Origin: Oscillospiraceae bacterium
GTDB taxonomy: Bacteria > Bacillota > Clostridia > Oscillospirales > Ruminococcaceae
Assembly (NCBI GenBank): GCA_018110925.1
Contig: JAGAZJ010000027.1
Span: 1 to 37,425, forward strand
Direction of reading: 5' to 3'
Length of the DNA stretch: 37,425 bases
Each line of letters begins with the position of its first letter. The first letter of the stretch is position 1. The notes below the pieces were generated by a model. It was not told the origin of the DNA and searched no databases. It saw nothing but the letters and a program-made list of their open reading frames with translations. Made by a program: the position numbers and the translations under genes. This document shows, one piece after another, positions 1,523 through 27,986 of the stretch.

Positions 1523-1531
1523 GAAAAACCG

Positions 1532-1657
1532 TGTTTCTTCCATCCGGACTATACCGTCGGTATCGGAATCTCACCGATTCATGCACCCCGAAGGACGCTC
1601 GCAGACTATACTGCCGGTGGGGAATAGCTCGCAAGAGCATCACCCCGCCCCGAAACA
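1532..1657 (-). promoter_or_regulatory. FMN riboswitch (RFN element)
   Basis: On the minus strand the conserved blocks of the FMN aptamer appear in order: TTCGGGGCGGGGTG (from about 1655), CCCCACCGGCAGTA, TCTGCGAGC, TCGGTGAGATTCCGAT, CCGACGGTATAGTC and CCGGATGGAAGAA (to about 1533). The element starts 100 bases before ribU. FMN binding is expected to lower expression of the riboflavin importer. Confidence 0.96.
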
Positions 1658-1721
1658 AATTGCTTATTAACTTGTATATCGCCCGACGAACTCATGGCTC
1701 GTCACAATGCGCAACGCCCTG

Positions 1722-2880: not shown

Positions 2881-5800
2881 TTATTCGTCCGAGGGCGGCA
2901 GCTGTTCCATCCTGAGCAGTTTGGATATGCCCTTCTCCTGCATGGTCACGCCGTAAAACACATCCGCTTCCTCCATAGTGCCTCGTCTGTGGGTTATGGT
3001 GATGAACTGGGTGGTATCGGTGTAATTGTGGAGGTACTGCGCATATCTCGACACGTTCACATCATCGAGCGCCGCCTCTATCTCATCGAGTATGCAGAAG
3101 GGCGCAGGCCGAACACGCAGTATGGCGAAGTATATCGCTATCGCCACGAATGCCTGCTCACCGCCCGACAGCAGTGACAGATTGCCTATCACCTTGCCCG
3201 GTGGCGCAACGTTTATCTCTATGCCCGATTCAAGCACGTCGTCGGGGTCGGTAAGCACAAGCTCAGCCCGTCCGCCGCCGAAAAGCTCCGTGAATATCTT
3301 CTTGAACAGGGTGTTTATCTCACCGAAGTTCTTTGTGAAGCGCTCCTTCATTATGGCAGTGTATTCGTCTATCAGGCGCAATAACTCACGCTTTGAAGCA
3401 TTCACGTCCGCAAGCTGCTTTGACAGCACTTCGTATTTTTCCGACACTGTCTTGTAGTCGTCGATGGCTTCAAGATTTATACTGCCCAGAGCCCTGATGC
3501 GGTTTCTCACCGTGGTGAGCCTTGTGTCAAGCTCCTTCTTGTCGATATCCTTTATGACCAGTGCCTCGGCTTCCGAGGGGTACAGCTCATACTGCTCCGC
3601 CATATCCGACAGTATCTTGTCACGCTCCGAAAACGATGCGTCCCTGCGTTCTTCAAGCCTTATCCTCTCGGCAGAGAGAGCCGCCTTGTCGTCATTCGCC
3701 TTTTTGAGTTCGCGTCTCAGCTCGCCGTCCCTGCGCTCACGCTCCAGATTTTCGTGCTTCTTGGCGTTGATGCGCTGTGTTATCTCCTCCGACCTCTTGC
3801 CCGAATCCGAAAGGGACACACGCCTTTCCTCTATCTCTTTTTTGTAGCCCTCAATAAGCTCCTTCTGACGGGCTATCTCAACGGTATGCCCTGCGGATAT
3901 GTCGCCTGTCTTCCTGCCCTGCTCCTTAATATCCTCGACAAAGGCAAGAGCCGCTTCCCTGTCCTTTTCAAGAGATGTGCGCTTTATGCTCAGACCCGAT
4001 ATTCGTTCCGAGAGCTCATCCCTCTGCTGACGTAGCCTTTCGTATTCAGCGCCGTCTGCACCCGACTCGGCCTGCTCTGCCGCTATCTTTGCTTCCGTAT
4101 CGGCGAGCTTTTTCTCATTCTCGGTTATGATGCGCTCGGTGTCCTCACGCTTCTTTTCAAGGCGTGATGCGGTATCGTCCGCAAGACGCTGCGCATTCTC
4201 GTTCTGCTCTTCAAGCTGGGCTATTCGTTTCAGCTCGCTCTCATATCTTATCCTGTCCTCGCCCATGCGCCTGAGATCGGCTTCAAGAGCTTCAAGGTCT
4301 ATCGCCGCCTTGTCGCACTCCGCTTTCAGCCTGCCGAAGCGCTCCTTTATCTCCTGCTCCTCCGCCGTCCTGCTCCTTATCTCGGCGGCAACGCTTTCTA
4401 TCTCGTTCTTTCTGGTAAGTATACCGCTGGATCTGTTCACGGAACCGCCCGTGTACGAACCGCCCGCGTTGACCACCTGGCCGTCAAGGGTGACTATCCT
4501 GAACTTATAGCCGAAGCGCTTTGCGATAGCGCCCGCCTGGTCTATGTCCTCCGCAACAGCCACTCTGCCCAGTATCGAGGTCACGACGCCCTCATACCTC
4601 TTGTCATAGCCAACCAGATCACAGGCAAGAGCCACAAAACCGGCGCACATATCAAGGCCTCTCTCACTCAGCCTGTTCCCGTGTACGGAAGTGAGCGGCA
4701 GGAACGTGGCACGACCCGCACCCATCTCTTTGAGCAGGCGTATGCCCTTCTTTGCGCTCTCCTCATCCTCGGTGACGATATTCTGCACCGAGCCGCCAAG
4801 AGCCGTTTCTATCGCCGTGCTGTATTCCGGCGGCACATCCACTATCTGTGACACCGTACCTACGATGCCGCTTATCCTGCCGTTCTTTGATGAGCGGAGT
4901 ATCTGCTTTACGGCATTGGCGTAGCCGTCCATGCTGTTCTCAAGGTCTGTGAGTATCCGCTCCTTGCTCCTGAGACCGCCTATATCGGCAGAGAGAGCCG
5001 AAAGCTGTGCAGAAAGCTCCGACTGCTTCTGACGCTTGCCCTCATAGATGCGCTTCATGCCGAGTATCCTGTTGTTCTGCTCCTCCGCCTTTTCGGAGAC
5101 CACTCTGAGGCCGTCCTCGGTCTCCGCCTTTTCCTTTGCAAGACCGTCCTTGCCCTGTGCTATCTCGTCAAGACGCTGTTTTGCGCTAACAGCCTGTGAC
5201 TGCGCTTCATCAAGGCTGTTCCGTGCGGCTATGACGGTGGTGTTTATCTCGGTGCGGCGTATGTAGAGCGCATTGAGCTTCTGTTCGTGCTCGGAGCGCT
5301 TTCTGTCAAAAACGTCGGAGCTTGTCCTTGTGTGTATGAGCTCGTCCTCTGCGGCTTTTACATCGTTTTCCAGCTGTCTCAGCTGAGCGGAGATGTCATC
5401 GGCCTCTTTCAGCTTTTCAGTCACCAGCCGCCTGTTCTCCTCACTGCTGGTCCTGGCGGCTTCTATCGCCTTTTCCAGCTCCTCTGTCTTTTCCTGTGCG
5501 TGCTTGATATTATTTTCGAGCACGGCAATGCCCGATATGTCCTCGGAATTGCTCCTCTCGTTCTCGATCAGTTCCGCCTGGAGAGAGTCCACCTCGATAT
5601 TGGCAAGGCTTATCTCCTCGGACAGCAGCTGCTGCTTCTCCTCCAGTGTATTTATATCATTCTCGGAGTTGCGGAACTCTGCCGAGTTTATCAGCAGTTT
5701 GTCCTCTATCTCCCTGATCCTGGTTTTCAGCACCTCCACAGTGCCCATCCAAGAGGTTATCTCCAGGGATTTCTTCTCCTCCGCATACTTTATGTATTTT

Positions 5801-6438
5801 TCCGCCTTCTCCGCCTGTATCTTCAGGGGTCCCAGCTGTTCCTCATAGAGAGAAACGGAGTCGTTGAGGCGGTCGATGTTCTCCTCCGCCTTTTTAAGCT
5901 TGTTCTCGGCATCTTCCTTGTGATAGCGAGCCTTTGATATGCCTGCGGCCTCCTCGAATATGCTCCTGCGCTCAGATGAGCGTGATGAGACTATCTCTGC
6001 CACCTTGCCCTGCCCTATGATGGAATAGCCGTCCCTGCCGAGACCCGTGTCCATGAAAAGCTCGGACACGTCTTTCAGCCTGACCTGCTCGCCGTTTATG
6101 ATGTATTCGCTCTCACCGCTCCGGTAGAGCTTTCTGGTGACGGATACTTCCTTTTCGGAGGTGTTGAGGAGCCCCTTGTCGTTGACTATATTCAGCGTGA
6201 CGCTTGCAAAGCCCATGGGCTTGCGGAGCTGTGTTCCCGCGAAGATGACATCCTCCATTTTTGCGCCTCTGAGCGTCTTTGAGGACTGCTCACCCAGTAC
6301 CCAGCGCACCGCATCGCCTATATTGGATTTGCCGCTGCCGTTAGGCCCTACCACGGCGGTTATGCCTTTTCCGAATTCAAGGCTTATCTTGTCAGGGAAT
6401 GACTTGAATCCCTGGAGTTCAAGTGATCTGAGATACAT
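2881..6438 (-). CDS. smc: Chromosome segregation ATPase SMC
   Basis: 1185 aa, full length for the family. SMC dimers with ScpA and ScpB compact and resolve the chromosome. The N-terminal head starts MYLRSLELQGFKSF and has Walker A GPNGSGKSN at 31-39. Two long coiled coils flank a glycine-rich hinge at roughly 500-650 (GYANAVKQIL to YTGGSVNRS). The C-terminal head has the ABC signature LSGGEQ near 1090 and Walker B CILDEIEAALDD at about 1115-1126. The ATG at 6438 is preferred over upstream TTG codons because it gives the conserved N-terminus and has AAAGGA at 8 bases. The usual neighbours rnc and ftsY are absent here. Confidence 0.97.
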   Translation of the reverse strand: MYLRSLELQGFKSFPDKISLEFGKGITAVVGPNGSGKSNIGDAVRWVLGEQSSKTLRGAKMEDVIFAGTQLRKPMGFASVTLNIVNDKGLLNTSEKEVSVTRKLYRSGESEYIINGEQVRLKDVSELFMDTGLGRDGYSIIGQGKVAEIVSSRSSERRSIFEEAAGISKARYHKEDAENKLKKAEENIDRLNDSVSLYEEQLGPLKIQAEKAEKYIKYAEEKKSLEITSWMGTVEVLKTRIREIEDKLLINSAEFRNSENDINTLEEKQQLLSEEISLANIEVDSLQAELIENERSNSEDISGIAVLENNIKHAQEKTEELEKAIEAARTSSEENRRLVTEKLKEADDISAQLRQLENDVKAAEDELIHTRTSSDVFDRKRSEHEQKLNALYIRRTEINTTVIAARNSLDEAQSQAVSAKQRLDEIAQGKDGLAKEKAETEDGLRVVSEKAEEQNNRILGMKRIYEGKRQKQSELSAQLSALSADIGGLRSKERILTDLENSMDGYANAVKQILRSSKNGRISGIVGTVSQIVDVPPEYSTAIETALGGSVQNIVTEDEESAKKGIRLLKEMGAGRATFLPLTSVHGNRLSERGLDMCAGFVALACDLVGYDKRYEGVVTSILGRVAVAEDIDQAGAIAKRFGYKFRIVTLDGQVVNAGGSYTGGSVNRSSGILTRKNEIESVAAEIRSRTAEEQEIKERFGRLKAECDKAAIDLEALEADLRRMGEDRIRYESELKRIAQLEEQNENAQRLADDTASRLEKKREDTERIITENEKKLADTEAKIAAEQAESGADGAEYERLRQQRDELSERISGLSIKRTSLEKDREAALAFVEDIKEQGRKTGDISAGHTVEIARQKELIEGYKKEIEERRVSLSDSGKRSEEITQRINAKKHENLERERRDGELRRELKKANDDKAALSAERIRLEERRDASFSERDKILSDMAEQYELYPSEAEALVIKDIDKKELDTRLTTVRNRIRALGSINLEAIDDYKTVSEKYEVLSKQLADVNASKRELLRLIDEYTAIMKERFTKNFGEINTLFKKIFTELFGGGRAELVLTDPDDVLESGIEINVAPPGKVIGNLSLLSGGEQAFVAIAIYFAILRVRPAPFCILDEIEAALDDVNVSRYAQYLHNYTDTTQFITITHRRGTMEEADVFYGVTMQEKGISKLLRMEQLPPSDE

Positions 6439-6512
6439 AAACACTGTCCTTTGGCTCAATATTACCGATCCTGTGACGGATGCCCCTGCGGCTCACGCCG
6501 CCGGCGTGTACT

Positions 6513-6541
6513 ATGATAACACAAACCGCATAAAAAGTCAA
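6513..6541 (-). promoter_or_regulatory. Promoter of smc
   Basis: TTGACT (6541-6536) and TATCAT (6518-6513) on the minus strand with a 17-base spacer. The predicted leader of about 70 bases has a GC-rich hairpin (CGCCGGCGGCG) before the start codon. Confidence 0.75.
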
Positions 6542-6583
6542 ATGCGATCACGGCACATTCACGCAGGGACGAACGGCATCATC

Positions 6584-6620
6584 AAACGAAAACACCCGAA
6601 TGCCCATAACATTCAGGTGT
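6584..6620 (-). terminator. Intrinsic terminator of the small RNA unit
   Basis: On the minus strand ACACC-GAATG (6620-6610, one mismatch between the blocks) pairs with CATTC-GGTGT (6602-6592) around a 7-base loop, followed by TTTCGTTT. The opposite strand has no U-tract, so it acts leftward. Confidence 0.65.
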
Positions 6621-6664
6621 CGCAAAGCCTATACCACAGGTCATCATGTCACAAATGACCCAAC
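6585..6664 (-). ncRNA. Candidate small RNA (about 80 nt) or attenuated leader upstream of smc
   Basis: A consensus promoter at 6700-6671 is followed within 80 bases by an intrinsic terminator, with no start codon and ribosome binding site between them. The predicted RNA has a 5' hairpin GGTCAT / ATGACC (about 6660-6639), a single-stranded stretch GGTATAGGCTTTGCG, and the terminator stem. It could be a free small RNA or a prematurely ended long leader of smc. I do not recognise its family; transcription is inferred from the signals alone. Confidence 0.45.
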
Positions 6665-6670
6665 ATATCA

Positions 6671-6700
6671 ATTATAATACAAAACCGCCCGAAAGGTCAA
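6671..6700 (-). promoter_or_regulatory. Promoter of the small RNA unit
   Basis: TTGACC (6700-6695) and a perfect TATAAT (6676-6671) on the minus strand, spacer 18 bases. It faces away from the promoter of the large RNA 60 bases to the right. Confidence 0.7.
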
Positions 6701-6758
6701 TAGGCAAAATGTATAAATATTTTGCACAAATCCTGTGCGGTAATTTTTCGAAAAACTA

Positions 6759-6790
6759 TTGACTTTTTACAGGGGATGTGGTAGTATAAT
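6759..6790 (+). promoter_or_regulatory. Promoter of the large structured RNA
   Basis: TTGACT at 6759-6764 and TAGTAT at 6782-6787 with a 17-base spacer. TGTGG precedes the -10, as at several other promoters of this window. An overlapping TATAAT at 6785-6790 would give a 20-base spacer and is less likely. Confidence 0.75.
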
Positions 6791-7407
6791 ATCAACGAAA
6801 GGGAAAGCTCAATACACTAACCGAAAGAGCAGTCCGTATTCGACAACGTCAGCAGAAAGGGGCGAGTCCGATGGCAACAGAGACACAGTCAAGAGAGTTC
6901 CGTAGCGGCTCGTACATCGGTGAAGGCTGAGGGAAGTATAAATGCAGTATAGCCTGTGAGCTATCCACTTCCGATTATTAAAACGATTGGTTTTACATCC
7001 GAATATACGAGTACCGCAGGAGCTTTGGCAAGTGTTAGTCCATTAAGGGTGACACAGAGCTTTGGGCGGTGATTTTTATACCCTTTGCGGGACAGGGTGC
7101 ACAGCATCTCACCTGATAAGGTGGCACGCAGTTTATACCTAGGGTTCTCTCTTGTTGAAGATTGCGGATCCAACGGAAGGATCCGGTGATTAAAGTCAAT
7201 TCCGAAAGGATGACAGCTTATGAAGGGATTTTTCAGAAGGTTCATTTGATCTGAGAGGAGTGAGTCCAACAGGCTGTTTAGTTTGACCGCAGTGTATGCC
7301 GAAAGGCAGCGGCAGGATGTTACGCTCATAAGGCCGATGGTCAGGGAGCGTGTACCGTAGTGATACGGCAAATTCCCGAAAGGAATGATTTCGTATGATC
7401 AGGAGAT

Positions 7408-7500
7408 ATTCCGGAATCTGAAGAAGAGGAGTGAGTCCGAAAGTAACTTGAAGCTTCTTTAAGTGCTTGGGTTCTTGATGAAAGGGCTGATTTTTATGAA
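7408..7500 (+). repeat. RNA module copy A inside the large RNA
   Basis: Matches copy B (7841-7933) over about 92 bases. Order: CGGAATCTGA, the hairpin GGA-GTGAG-TCC (7428-7438), a variable 8-bp hairpin (7446-7453 with 7457-7464), then stem GTTCTT (7471-7476), pentaloop GATGA and AAGGGC (7482-7487), then CTGATTTTTATGAA. Confidence 0.75.
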
Positions 7501-7840
7501 ATCGAGAGGTCACGATCTGCATCGCAGGTGAGCGGGCCGGGGTCATAGGGACGTCGGTTCGGGAAAGACGTAAACTTTTAGATGATCAAGGAGATACTCC
7601 CATGGACAGTTGAACGGTTGCACTAAACGACTAAACTCGGGTGTGAAGCCCTGAGAAGCAAGATGAGGTGTATTCCAATGGCATGAGATCCAATGCCTGA
7701 ATAACTATCCACTTTGTGGAAATAAAGTAATGGAGCAAGTCCAATGGATTAAAGTTTATAGATCTTTTGCATATAATATGCTTTAAATAGAATTTCTGCT
7801 TTTGTAAAGGAGCATGTATCGCAACTTATTTAAAGTTTAT

Positions 7841-7933
7841 TTCGGTAATCTGAATGATAGGGAGTGAGTCCGCCTAACACGGTAAATTCTGTTTAGGATC
7901 TTTGGTTCCCGATGAGGGAGCTTGATAATGATA
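7841..7933 (+). repeat. RNA module copy B inside the large RNA
   Basis: Same order and nearly the same spacing as copy A: CGGTAATCTGA, GGA-GTGAG-TCC (7861-7871), a variable hairpin (CCTAA 7873-7877 with TTAGG 7893-7897), then GTTCCC (7905-7910), loop GATGA, GGGAGC (7916-7921), then TTGATAATGATAA. Both copies keep six pairs in the last stem although the bases differ. Confidence 0.75.
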
Positions 7934-7937
7934 ATAC

Positions 7938-7972
7938 AGCGTCGCTTTAGGAGTTCGGAAGCGGCGCTTTTT
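7938..7972 (+). terminator. Intrinsic terminator of the large RNA
   Basis: AGCGTCGCTT (7938-7947) pairs with AAGCGGCGCT (7959-7968) around an 11-base loop, followed by a run of five T (7968-7972). Confidence 0.85.
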
Positions 7973-8010
7973 CATGCCCTCATACACTCGGATATCCCCC
8001 GTACATACGG

Positions 8011-8044
8011 ACAGCGCCCGACGCTTTGCGTCAGGCGCTGTTTC
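8011..8044. terminator. Very strong stem-loop between convergent transcripts
   Basis: ACAGCGCC-GACGC pairs with GCGTC-GGCGCTGT around a TTT loop (8011-8041), 30 bases after the stop of the minus-strand c-di-GMP gene. A short T-run exists only on the plus side (8040-8043). It probably ends the minus-strand gene, acts as a second stop for the large RNA, or both. Confidence 0.6.
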
Positions 8045-8072
8045 CATACTGATCTGTTGTTCGGTCAGAATA

Positions 8073-9992
8073 TCACTTATTTATAAACTCGACGAAATCT
8101 CTCTCGCAGAGAGCCCGTGAGAAGTAATACCCTTGCAGATAATCCACATCGAGATTTGCAAGGATCGCCGCCTGCTCGGCGGTCTCAACGCCCTCTACCA
8201 GTACATCACGCTTCATCTGCTTGAACATCTTGACCGTGTTCTCAAGCATTATCCTGCCGAGCTCGGTCTGCTCCGCTCCCCTGAGCAGGCTCTTGTCTAT
8301 CTTGATTATATCAAAGTTCAGAGACAGCAGAGCGTTCATATTTGAATAGCCCGTGCCGTAATCATCCATCGAGAAAAGAAATCCGCTGCTCTTCAAAGTA
8401 TTTATGACGTGGCTCAGGAGCTCATAGTCATCAGCCGCCACCGATTCGGTGATCTCAAAGTTCAGAAAATGCTTGTCTATGCCCGACCTCTCGACTATCA
8501 TGTTGATATGTTCGGCAAATCCGGGTCTCATGCACTCTATCACCGACAGGTTCACGTTTATCGAGCCCATGCCGTGTACGGCGGGTATGCCGCTCTTGAT
8601 AAAGGCACATACCTGTTCAAGGACAAAGTCGTCGATTCGGTCTATGATGCCCATCTGCTCCGCCACGGGGATGAATTCGTCGGGGGGTATGTCGCCAAGC
8701 TCCCTGTCGTGCATCCTGACGAGTGCTTCCGCACCGTGGAGCTTTCTGTCCTTCATGCTGTATGTCGGCTGATAGTATACGGAGAAGCTCTTTTCCTCAA
8801 GCCCTCTCGACACAGCCGCCTCGACCGCATTGTGCCTTATCAGATAGTTCAGATCATCGCCCGTCAGCACCTTTTTGTCATTGCCCTTGGGCAAGGGTGC
8901 GTCTATCATGTAGAATGCGTGCCTTGCGCCTGCTATCTGCTTGCTCGGCAGCCCTGCGGCGAGCACGACTGCTTTGAGCATAATATCCATATCATTGAGC
9001 CGCCAGGTCGAGTCAAAGCGCCTGCTCAGCTCCTCCGCCTTGTCCCTTGCTTCCTTCTCACTCTTGTCGGTCATAGCAATGACAAATGTGCCTGTGCTTG
9101 CGTTATAGACAGCCGCCCTCGGCACTGCCGACCGCAGATAATCAGCCACCAGTCCCGACAGCACATCGGTATTTTCAAGACCTGTGGTGCGCAGTATTAT
9201 ATCGGCATTGGTTATCCTGAGCACTATCAGCTGGACGGGGCGCTTGTTAAGGATATATCCGTCTAAATCCAGCTTCAGGGCTCTGCGGTTGTAAAAGCCC
9301 GTGTCTGAGTCTATCCTCTCGTCCTCACTCTCAACGGAGAGCATTATGCCCATAAGACCCAGTGCCTCCGCAAAAAGCTCGACCTTTATGTTGTTGAACA
9401 CGAGCTGTACAAGTATTCCTGCGGCAACGACAAAGAAGAAATAGAACAGCGCAGACCTGCGCTTCTCGGTCAGTGCCTTCCATGTGGACATGAGGCGCAG
9501 GAAAGCCAGCACGAGATAGAAGGCGGCGGCGGCATAGATTATGTACTCTGCCCACCCTCGCTTGAAAAGCCGGTTCTCGTCAAATGTATACAGCCATGAT
9601 GTCAAGGGATTTGTCAGAGCCAGAAGCTCCGTGACCGCAAACACCGCTACATACACTATCTTCATTTTGCTTTTTTTGCTGAACGCCACACCGCAGACAG
9701 TGGTGACGTAGGCAAAGAACACGGGGCTCAGCATGGTATGCACCGCAAAATAGGTATATACCATCGTCTGATACACAAGGAAATATGTGTTGCTCTCAAA
9801 GAGCAACGCCTCCATATACCCTGCGCCTATCTCGCTCAGGGCATTGAAAAACACGATGTATATGAGCGCAATGTAGATCTGATTATTCTTTTTGTCGGTG
9901 CGCTGCTGTATGACCGTGAAAAGCAGACAGGTAAGACAGATCATCAGCGCAGAAAAACCGAATATTATCCGTGTATAATCGTATGTATTCAT
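8073..9992 (-). CDS. Membrane-bound c-di-GMP phosphodiesterase with degenerate GGDEF and intact EAL domain
   Basis: 639 aa. Residues 1-220 contain about seven membrane segments, a sensor-like input. Residues 225-370 have the GGDEF fold, but the signature site reads STGTF, so cyclase activity is very unlikely. The EAL domain (about 385-639) keeps the catalytic set: E422 in GAEALVR, N481 in NVNLS, E513 in FEITES, D543-D544 in MDDYGTG, K564 in IIKID, E600 and E603 in VEGVET, and Q620 in LQGYYF. It should therefore hydrolyse c-di-GMP, possibly gated by the GGDEF-like domain. The ATG at 9992 has GGGAG upstream. The gene has its own promoter and a leader of about 190 bases with an ATACCGG/CCGGTAT stem-loop just before the ribosome binding site. 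Confidence 0.93.
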   Translation of the reverse strand: MNTYDYTRIIFGFSALMICLTCLLFTVIQQRTDKKNNQIYIALIYIVFFNALSEIGAGYMEALLFESNTYFLVYQTMVYTYFAVHTMLSPVFFAYVTTVCGVAFSKKSKMKIVYVAVFAVTELLALTNPLTSWLYTFDENRLFKRGWAEYIIYAAAAFYLVLAFLRLMSTWKALTEKRRSALFYFFFVVAAGILVQLVFNNIKVELFAEALGLMGIMLSVESEDERIDSDTGFYNRRALKLDLDGYILNKRPVQLIVLRITNADIILRTTGLENTDVLSGLVADYLRSAVPRAAVYNASTGTFVIAMTDKSEKEARDKAEELSRRFDSTWRLNDMDIMLKAVVLAAGLPSKQIAGARHAFYMIDAPLPKGNDKKVLTGDDLNYLIRHNAVEAAVSRGLEEKSFSVYYQPTYSMKDRKLHGAEALVRMHDRELGDIPPDEFIPVAEQMGIIDRIDDFVLEQVCAFIKSGIPAVHGMGSINVNLSVIECMRPGFAEHINMIVERSGIDKHFLNFEITESVAADDYELLSHVINTLKSSGFLFSMDDYGTGYSNMNALLSLNFDIIKIDKSLLRGAEQTELGRIMLENTVKMFKQMKRDVLVEGVETAEQAAILANLDVDYLQGYYFSRALCERDFVEFINK

Positions 9993-20209: not shown

Positions 20210-20563
20210 TGGTGGAGATGACGGGAATCGAACCCGTGTCCGAAAACCTATCCACCCGAACTTCTCCGAGCGCAGCTTATCTACAACATTCCCCCGAGCG
20301 GCATCCGGGTAAGCACGGAGCCGTCAGAGTAGCCTGCAATACATCATCCGTGACACAGGCACTTCACGGTGACGTTCACTGCTAATCGACGCCCAGGCTC
20401 AAGCCGCAGTACTCAAGAGCAGGACGGACGGCTGTCAAGCAGCCATCGGTACAAAATTATTCTTGTCGTCTAATTTTAAAACGTGTGCGGTTTAAAGAGT
20501 TACAGCACCGTCCTCTGCTCGCTTATCGAGATTCAAAGTCCCCGTCGAAACCTTTACATCCCC
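20210..20563 (-). ncRNA. ssrA: Transfer-messenger RNA (tmRNA)
   Basis: 354 nt. The 5' end reads GGGGATGTAAAGGTTTCGAC and the 3' end GGTTCGATTCCCGTCATC-TCCACCA, with CCA encoded. GGGGATG pairs with CATCTCC to form the tRNA-like acceptor stem, and the T-arm is intact. The tag frame follows TTAGAC and reads GAC AAG AAT AAT TTT GTA CCG ATG GCT GCT TGA, giving the tag (A)DKNNFVPMAA with the usual AA end for protease recognition. tmRNA rescues stalled ribosomes together with SmpB, whose gene lies 330 bp upstream on the same strand. Confidence 0.97.
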
Positions 20564-27909: not shown

Positions 27910-27986
27910 TGGCGTCCCCGGCGCGATTCGAACGCGCGGCCTTTCGCTTAGGAGGCGAACGCTCTATCCTGCTGAGCTACGGAGAC
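27910..27986 (-). tRNA. tRNA-Arg (anticodon CCT)
   Basis: 77 nt including an encoded CCA. The acceptor stem GTCTCCG pairs with CGGGGAC; the D-arm has GCTC/GAGC; the anticodon stem TTCGC/GCGAA carries loop CTCCTAA with anticodon CCT (reads AGG); the T-arm GCGCG-TTCGAAT-CGCGC is perfect. It has a consensus promoter and a terminator of its own, so it is transcribed as a single tRNA. Confidence 0.97.

Follow-up and report, generated by a model that had tools for sequence, protein, structure and literature searches.

A putative structured RNA gene of the Ruminococcaceae with a conserved array of micro-ORFs

Introduction

The window analyzed here, a stretch of 37,425 nucleotides from an Oscillospiraceae bacterium (assembly GCA_018110925.1, contig JAGAZJ010000027.1), contains at positions 6795-7972 what we read, on balance, as an independent RNA gene. 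Its product would be at once a structured RNA and a translated array of micro-ORFs, acting by engaging ribosomes. The anatomy of this array and its conservation are well supported by comparison of relatives, and from the same sequences we infer transcription, translation, ribosome retention and a biological role. A first-pass annotation had presented the segment as an ornate non-coding RNA. That description is not supported, since micro-ORFs led by Shine-Dalgarno (SD) sequences fill the RNA, their starts and stops keep a common frame, and some of their peptides are preserved through synonymous change.

Locus and putative transcription unit

The features of the window RNA, all on the plus strand, are as follows.

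6723..6738, plus strand: upstream box TGCACAAATCCTGTGC, partly palindromic, 5' of the promoter
6759..6787, plus strand: promoter; -35 TTGACT (6759-6764), 17 nt, -10 TAGTAT (6782-6787), extended by TGTGG
6795..7972, plus strand: whole RNA gene (micro-ORF array RNA), 5' end predicted
6860..6869, plus strand: first GGGCGAGTCC motif, just 5' of ORF1 and able to pair with GGCUCGU within it
6871..6930, plus strand: ORF1 (leader-like), MATETQSREFRSGSYIGEG-stop, covering the 5' strand of the long-range helix
6902..6920, plus strand: long-range helix, 5' strand
6931..6972, plus strand: hairpin P2 (GGGAAGU..ACUUCC and an inner stem), enclosed by the helix; covariation on alignment A3
6999..7017, plus strand: long-range helix, 3' strand
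7220..7249, plus strand: micro-ORF MKGFFRRFI-stop
7258..7267, plus strand: class C motif GAGTGAGTCC, resembling a ribosome-binding site, with no ATG after it
7395..7421, plus strand: micro-ORF MIRRYSGI-stop
7429..7438, plus strand: class C motif GAGTGAGTCC
7496..7531, plus strand: micro-ORF MKSRGHDLHRR-stop, apparently one of the RG[FY]HDLN family
7602..7613, plus strand: mini-ORF MDS-stop
7678..7686, plus strand: mini-ORF MA-stop
7744..7752, plus strand: mini-ORF MD-stop
7769..7781, plus strand: small hairpin GCAUAUAAUAUGC 5' of CUUUAAAUAGAAUUUC, read by eye, with a similar stretch in G014 and G015
7862..7871, plus strand: last class C motif GAGTGAGTCC, then GCC
7940..7972, plus strand: intrinsic terminator; a stem of 9 bp (7940-7966) followed by C and five U

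Conserved promoter, structured RNA and terminator together make 6795-7972 look like a separate transcription unit, with a predicted start near 6795. Both flanking genes lie on the minus strand and match Pfam models, SMC_N (E 1.7e-72) for smc and an EAL domain (E 1.6e-63) for the other, in agreement with the placement originally given, between smc and a c-di-GMP phosphodiesterase. The gene 3' of the RNA is convergent, and the RNA ends in its own terminator. That terminator, likewise named at first pass, has a stem energy of -11.5 kcal/mol in addition to its U tail; it is unlisted in the consensus scan, probably because of its loop length. A terminator-like hairpin is also seen on the minus strand, at 6591-6621, between smc and the RNA gene.

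The promoter stands as it was first described (TTGACT, 17 nt, TAGTAT, with TGTGG) and recurs across relatives. A consensus scan, a weak indicator by itself, gives 7 promoter-like sites against 3.2 +/- 1.7 expected. By pattern search, a near-identical promoter (TTGAC, 13-14 nt, TGTGGTATAnTATA..CAAGGAAA) is present in 20 of the 27 homologue-bearing genomes; two more were recognized by eye (G015 and G008), and G285, G218, G034, G245 and G178 gave no match to the pattern. At similar spacing 5' of the promoter, GCACAA is found in 14 of the 16 genomes shown, G198 and G200 being the exceptions, and the box at 6723-6738 is a possible site for a regulator.

Plus-strand ORFs of at least 40 aa are limited to one of 48 aa at the promoter (6759-6905) and a second, of 54 aa, which begins at 7922 and extends beyond the RNA. 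To this extent the earlier statement that the segment has no plausible plus-strand protein is correct; what it overlooked are the micro-ORFs, which escape a gene finder because they are too short. A protein on the minus strand, where ORFs of 116 and 136 aa can be drawn, was rejected: over 25 stretches, antisense ORFs of at least 70 aa number 15, against 13.6 +/- 3.1 after shuffling. A few of the antisense ORFs are alike, as expected from homologous DNA.

Layout of the array

Besides ORF1, the window array comprises three micro-ORFs of 8-11 codons, the mini-ORFs MDS, MA and MD, and three class C motifs. Relatives have in common the promoter, in most cases the upstream GCACAA box, ORF1, hairpin P2 and the long-range helix, followed by an array that varies. 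ORF1 spans 16-28 codons and begins in relatives at a start motif such as GGCGAGTCCRATGG. Three classes of ORF can be distinguished, each after an SD: the leader has 16-28 codons, a second class 8-13, and the start-stop mini-ORFs 2-3. The class C motif, GGAGUGANNCC (window 7258, 7429 and 7862, and relatives), resembles a ribosome-binding site with no ATG; in the frame of its GUG a stop often falls within 6-11 codons, but a start at GUG is doubtful, the SD being too close. The idea that GAGTGAGTCC is related to the RNase P core GAGGAAAGUCC was dropped, being without Rfam support.

Units of about 127-139 nt, built around the motif GGGAGTGAGTCC, are repeated in tandem in G011, G018, G009, G003 and G001. 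In G138, the mini-ORFs ME, MD, ME, MD and ME lie at 338, 393, 450, 505 and 561. The array of G008 includes eight ORFs, each 11-12 codons long and of the MKARGFHDLNL or MIKRRFHLLCI type. A short form is found in genus g16; in G245, its length up to the terminator, counted from a point just upstream of ORF1, is about 440 nt. G285 has ORF1 but no mini-ORF array. Among gaps between neighboring start or class C sites, 53 of 179 are 50-59 nt long; in the window the mini-ORF starts stand farther apart, at 76 and 66 nt.

Distribution of the array RNA

Homologues, which the first-pass annotation had suggested looking for, were found by all searches combined in 17 of the 20 genomes of the genus (G007, G012 and G017 lack one) and in 14 genera of the family (g1, g3, g16, g46, g88, g90, g99, g102, g114, g116, g120, g132, g135 and g142). 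In g132 only ORF1 was seen, so that further micro-ORFs follow ORF1 in 13 genera. A DNA search was positive in 13 of the 20 genus genomes and in 0 of 41 others. An exact 14-base motif matched 8 of 197 family genomes, and the five exact-motif matches from other genera read as true homologues. The first-ORF pattern matched 14 of 397 genomes, while its reversed control matched 3.

R1, a sequence-only profile of the 5' domain, matched 23 of 198 family genomes, which belong to 11 of the 95 genera covered, and 2 of 10 chosen genomes. In an order-wide search of 247 genomes, run with stricter filters and with most non-matches unlisted, it matched 4, all within the same family. The R1 counts are lower bounds, because five homologues known from patterns (G198, G200, G425, G285 and G034) were missed. 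E-values are weak for g99, g102 and g120 (5e-5 to 2e-4), yet micro-ORFs follow there. A peptide pattern found 0 matches in 345 genomes of the order, a result that says little because the window's genome was the only member of its genus in that sample.

The homologue genomes are mostly fragmented drafts, and several are close kin. The named carrier contigs are metagenome-assembled genomes (MAGs): Oscillospiraceae bacterium SUG1041, SUG2049, RGIG8511 and RGIG9084, and uncultured Ruminococcus sp.; RGIG8511 and RGIG9084 come from water deer gut. In many relatives a divergent DUF1292 gene lies upstream of the RNA (of 6 fragments typed, 5 pass the Pfam threshold), whereas in the window, G014 and G015 the RNA adjoins smc instead. 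This pattern of loci fits a chromosomal gene that is mostly inherited vertically. A phage or mobile element RNA finds no support: viral contigs gave 0 matches to two exact patterns, a search that diverged copies would escape.

In G018 (L035/L038) and G009 (L039/L044), the RNA gene is split across two contig ends within tandem units, and such splitting makes the gene easily overlooked in MAGs. G002 has two copies (L041, reverse strand, 3055-3720 and 5053-6257), of which the minimal one, about 0.65 kb, has its own promoter and terminator and three micro-ORFs.

Comparison with Rfam

That the segment belongs to no family then recognized agrees with the Rfam scan, which gave no match to it at a gathering score. 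Rfam 15, which includes ROOL, GOLLD, OLE, raiA, RNase P, tmRNA, introns and 6S, returned 3 matches in the window, none within 6790-7975. A permissive scan of 6500-8300 returned 9, each below half its gathering score, and 14 homologue loci returned tRNA and 6S genes only. Membership of an Rfam 15 family was rejected, as neither the RNA of the window nor that of the 14 loci has a match that reaches the gathering threshold. Elsewhere in the window, an FMN riboswitch (1528-1661, minus strand), a tmRNA (20210-20563, minus strand) and a tRNA gene (27913-27986, minus strand) all exceed their gathering scores. In L006, L007, L009 and L010 the matched part of the array RNA has a 6S RNA gene no more than about 1.5 kb away, and in L061 (G134) a sequence that to the eye resembles RNase P RNA begins soon 3' of the array terminator. 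No such array is described in the open-licence literature searched, a scope outside which most subscription papers lie.

Starts and stops of the micro-ORFs are under selection

We counted each ATG with an SD match at 5-12 nt (SD-ATG) in 25 stretches longer than 600 nt, the window included, and in 200 dinucleotide shuffles. Four of 29 stretches were excluded for length: G425 reaches a contig end, G285 has ORF1 without the array, and G034 and G245 are of the short form. G411 (L126) has no clear reading. SD-ATGs number 266; the shuffles give 85.8 +/- 9.5, with 113 as the highest of 200, and the reverse complement gives 13. ORFs of at most 4 codons are opened by 109 of them, compared with 18.1 +/- 4.4 in shuffles (maximum 32) and 2 on the reverse complement; in G010 a single RNA has as many as nine. 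The 25 stretches are not independent, because G018 and G009 contribute two pieces each and some are close kin (G153/G231). The lengths of SD-led ORFs (n=258) and of ORFs from other ATGs (n=364) are distributed as follows: 1 codon, 8 and 17; 2 codons, 54 and 24; 3 codons, 41 and 10; 4 codons, 6 and 13; 5-7 codons, 15 and 55; 8-11 codons, 66 and 92; 12-16 codons, 30 and 65; 17-24 codons, 29 and 47; more, 9 and 41. The peak at 2-3 codons thus belongs to SD-led ORFs.

The stops are specific to the frame. Among 119 sites picked by the upstream motif alone, ORF1 starts included, codon 2 or 3 after the ATG is a stop at 82 in frame, compared with 10 in frame +1 and 6 in frame +2; 33 sites have no stop within five codons. 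Twelve stretches found later, unused in forming the idea but including relatives of the first set, give 39 in frame and 15 and 5 in the other frames, of 52 sites. After ATGGACAGT the next codon is a stop at 9 of 11 sites (TGA 5, TAA 3, TAG 1, other 2), and after ATGGCA at 16 of 34, all three kinds being used. In ORFs of at most 4 codons, the stops are TAA 58 times, TGA 42 and TAG 9.

Two classes of start site differ in context. The mini-ORFs (94) have GGAG at about -12 to -9, UCC at -4 to -2 (T 86, C 91, C 94%) and G at +4 in 71%. The ORFs of 8-13 codons (80 distinct) have an AAAGG-like SD at about -15 to -11 and are without the UCC consensus, which just 1 of the 122 control starts taken at these loci shows. 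Searches of these genomes for their own 16S tail gave 0 matches; against a general bacterial 16S tail, predicted duplex energies are -12.5 kcal/mol for mini-ORFs, -13.5 for the 8-13 codon class and -10.9 for controls, these being long ORFs with their best-pairing ATG rather than annotated genes. Pairing is only modestly stronger than for ordinary genes, so a special 30S clamp is not established. That GGAG...UCC pairs with the 3' end of 16S rRNA is conjecture, and the duplex energies do not separate the mini-ORFs. Nor are the SD sites predicted to be unusually open (single-strandedness 0.41 and 0.46, against a mean of 0.45 for the RNA). The mini-ORFs do have the marks of minigenes, namely an SD at start distance, an ATG and an in-frame stop after one or two further codons, all under selection.

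Conserved structure

The structure is, as far as alignment and folding can tell, selected alongside the micro-ORFs. The minimum free energy (MFE) of the window RNA is -364.7, against -338.8 +/- 6.4 for shuffled sequences (z -4.0), with 0 of 40 shuffles as low, and C(GNRA)G is found 9 times against 3.2 in shuffles, which confirms the density of GNRA hairpins noted from the start. Also confirmed is the long-range helix, in which 6902-6920 pairs with 6999-7017 around the stem at 6931-6972. The covariation sought among homologues appears in part. Hairpin P2 covaries, whereas RNAalifold on the 5' domain, where the MAFFT alignment is poor, gave 9 pairs and no double change. For P2 (18 sequences), 92% of cells are paired against 80.8% shuffled (0/500), 25 cells are changed on both sides against 8.8 (0/500), and the covariation score is 0.250 against 0.121 (0/500), with slid controls at 0.099 or below; by contrast, no clear excess over shuffles is seen in double-change pairs (6 against 4.3, 48/500) or in pair types (10 against 11.9, 485/500). 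For class C units, RNAalifold gave 7 pairs, 2 of them with double changes. A GGA-UCC hairpin in the motif was rejected: RNAalifold draws it, yet no pair there is changed on both sides.

Because of the poor alignment, the long-range helix was tested sequence by sequence. In 14 of 24 sequences, no more than 7 of 200 shuffles equal the pairing of the end of ORF1 with the downstream ACGAGCCGC-like strand; in the other 10, more than 7 do. GGCUCGU within ORF1 has alternative partners, GGCGAGUC just 5' of the ORF1 start or ACGAGCCGC downstream. Both pairings can be drawn, and the upstream one is nearly invariant and so gives no covariation. In many relatives, the ORF1 stop lies inside the 5' strand of the helix. 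Since ORF1 spans that strand, a ribosome translating ORF1 would have to open the helix.

Coding selection and alternative explanations

Some of the longer ORFs are preserved as peptides. We count this in favor of our main reading, a translated array; it also speaks for an explanation that we consider unlikely, in which the RNA would serve as a polycistronic mRNA encoding functional peptides (ORF1 as well as cationic or hydrophobic peptides of 8-13 aa, such as the MxxRGFHDLNF family) and the mini-ORFs would only couple or tune translation. The HDLN-type ORFs (21 distinct windows, the MKSRGHDLHRR ORF of our own window being left out) have a pN/pS of 0.43 in frame, against 2.26 and 0.99 in the other frames, and they are repeated within a single RNA in G008 and G011. 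The window's MKSRGHDLHRR ORF has, as read by eye, lost one codon in frame (TTT of G014). For ORF1, the MADVTEQQF group (5 distinct) has pS/pN of 0.52/0.04 in frame and 0.04/0.15 and 0.00/0.15 in the other frames; the window's own group (pS 0.53, pN 0.45) is uninformative. In g16, MRVIRIGPSE and MRIVFRIGPSE share RIGPSE, with three synonymous changes and a length difference of one codon. Peptides of 7-17 aa are rich in I, L, R, K and F. For an mRNA of this kind, however, the numbers of 8-13 aa ORFs and mini-ORFs vary widely among relatives, the peptides differ between genera, and the arrays of G138 and G235 are largely di- and tripeptide ORFs, which are hardly conventional gene products. Moreover, no shared gene for processing or export was noticed nearby, the neighbors in relatives being annotated for DUF1292 only.

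It is rather improbable that the structured RNA is the active part, as scaffold or regulator, and that its ribosome-binding sites merely shield the transcript from nucleases. The covarying hairpin, the helix and the folding z-score are consistent with such an RNA, and work cited in PMC8708949 reports that strong-SD binding at a mini-ORF stabilized an mRNA; yet SD binding needs no in-frame stops at codons 2-3, which are strongly kept, and one or two sites would be enough where G010 has nine. A purely structural large ornate RNA of the ROOL, GOLLD or OLE kind, with ATGs and stops as by-products of repeats such as GGAGUGAGUCCRAUGG, is disfavored, and we give it very little credence. The repeated motif, the excess of C(GNRA)G and the covariation would suit it, whereas a stop excess that is specific to the frame and draws on TAA, TAG and TGA alike, two classes of start site that differ in context yet both have an SD at start distance, the 2-3 codon peak of SD-led ORFs, and synonymous substitution would not. 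A cascade of leader-peptide attenuators has a small chance of being correct. Here, each micro-ORF would stall the ribosome on a drug or metabolite and so switch the fold, with an output in trans or in transcript length. The overlap of ORF1 with a helix strand that has an alternative partner points in this direction, as do ORFs of 11 codons with a conserved C-terminus beside the stop. Against it, the window unit has no regulated downstream gene, ending in its own terminator before a convergent gene; G218 and G008, unlike the window, have a same-strand gene closely 3' of the array.

Proposed mechanism

We tentatively favor an RNA that is loaded with ribosomes running start-stop cycles behind a helix gated by ORF1. 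Ribosomes on ORF1 may open the long-range helix and so expose or couple downstream sites. At a strong SD followed by an ORF of 2-3 codons, a ribosome would initiate, terminate at once, and tend to stay or re-initiate. According to PMC8708949, a strong SD lets a ribosome re-initiate on a minigene without dissociating, and minigenes of two codons or ending in UAA are more toxic. Given a site spacing of 50-59 nt, initiating ribosomes could sit side by side. The RNA might in this way be lined with cycling ribosomes, and the 8-13 codon peptides could serve as stall or termination sensors within the relay. Such an RNA may track or buffer the capacity for initiation, in terms of free subunits, initiator tRNA and release factors, or alternatively hold ribosomes under some condition set by the promoter. 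A bolder reading, which we consider less likely than not, is a new kind of RNA machine, a cellular and chromosomal ribosome-array RNA with repeated start-stop mini-ORFs, often about 55 nt apart, in which initiation and termination, rather than the peptide, would be the function, either as ribosome parking or as a read-out of the capacity for both.

Comparison with known systems

The array RNA would work like minigenes on a string, with a gate that recalls a leader peptide. Bacterial minigenes, such as axe-txe mg2 and those in the EHEC LEE1 and LEE4 leaders, have the same SD, ATG, one or two codons and stop. Phage lambda bar is a further case. For both minigenes and array mini-ORFs, rapid start-stop cycles with peptidyl-tRNA drop-off or re-initiation are expected. 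As described in PMC8708949, known minigenes are single elements in the leaders or operons of ordinary genes and act in cis. The array RNA differs in being a separate RNA gene with several of them (up to nine of at most 4 codons), and in 13 genera with micro-ORFs after ORF1.

ROOL, GOLLD and OLE are large, structured RNAs from separate transcription units. The array RNA resembles them in size and structure (with covariation in P2), as was first noted, and in autonomy, and differs in its variable repeats with translated-looking ORFs and its chromosomal neighbors. ROOL, according to PMC12286853, is found in phages and prophages, often near tRNA islands. The resemblance holds for structure and covariation and fails at the selected coding sequence and the missing Rfam match, and for these two reasons we do not file the array RNA under ROOL, GOLLD or OLE. 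In leader-peptide attenuators, such as ermC and tna, a short ORF covers a strand of a helix that can switch, and ORF1 of the array RNA likewise covers a helix strand for which two pairings can be drawn. The array RNA is not filed among them because its unit in the window has no regulated gene; a series of further micro-ORFs is another difference. SgrS/SgrT and RNAIII are dual-function RNAs, structured and encoding one ORF. Like them the array RNA is structured and peptide-encoding, but it encodes many ORFs, much of them for di- or tripeptides or 8-13-mers.

Minigenes are known as single odd elements, and a conserved RNA gene with rows of them would, if the reading is correct, represent a new class of genetic element. 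Gene finders would miss the class because it looks non-coding, and RNA-family searches because its make-up is too variable. The array RNA would offer a direct handle on the cellular use of two-codon ORFs and on whether bacteria build scaffolds that hold ribosomes. At least 14 genera, all of one family, have it, and as the named members include gut MAGs, metatranscriptome data that bear on it may already exist.
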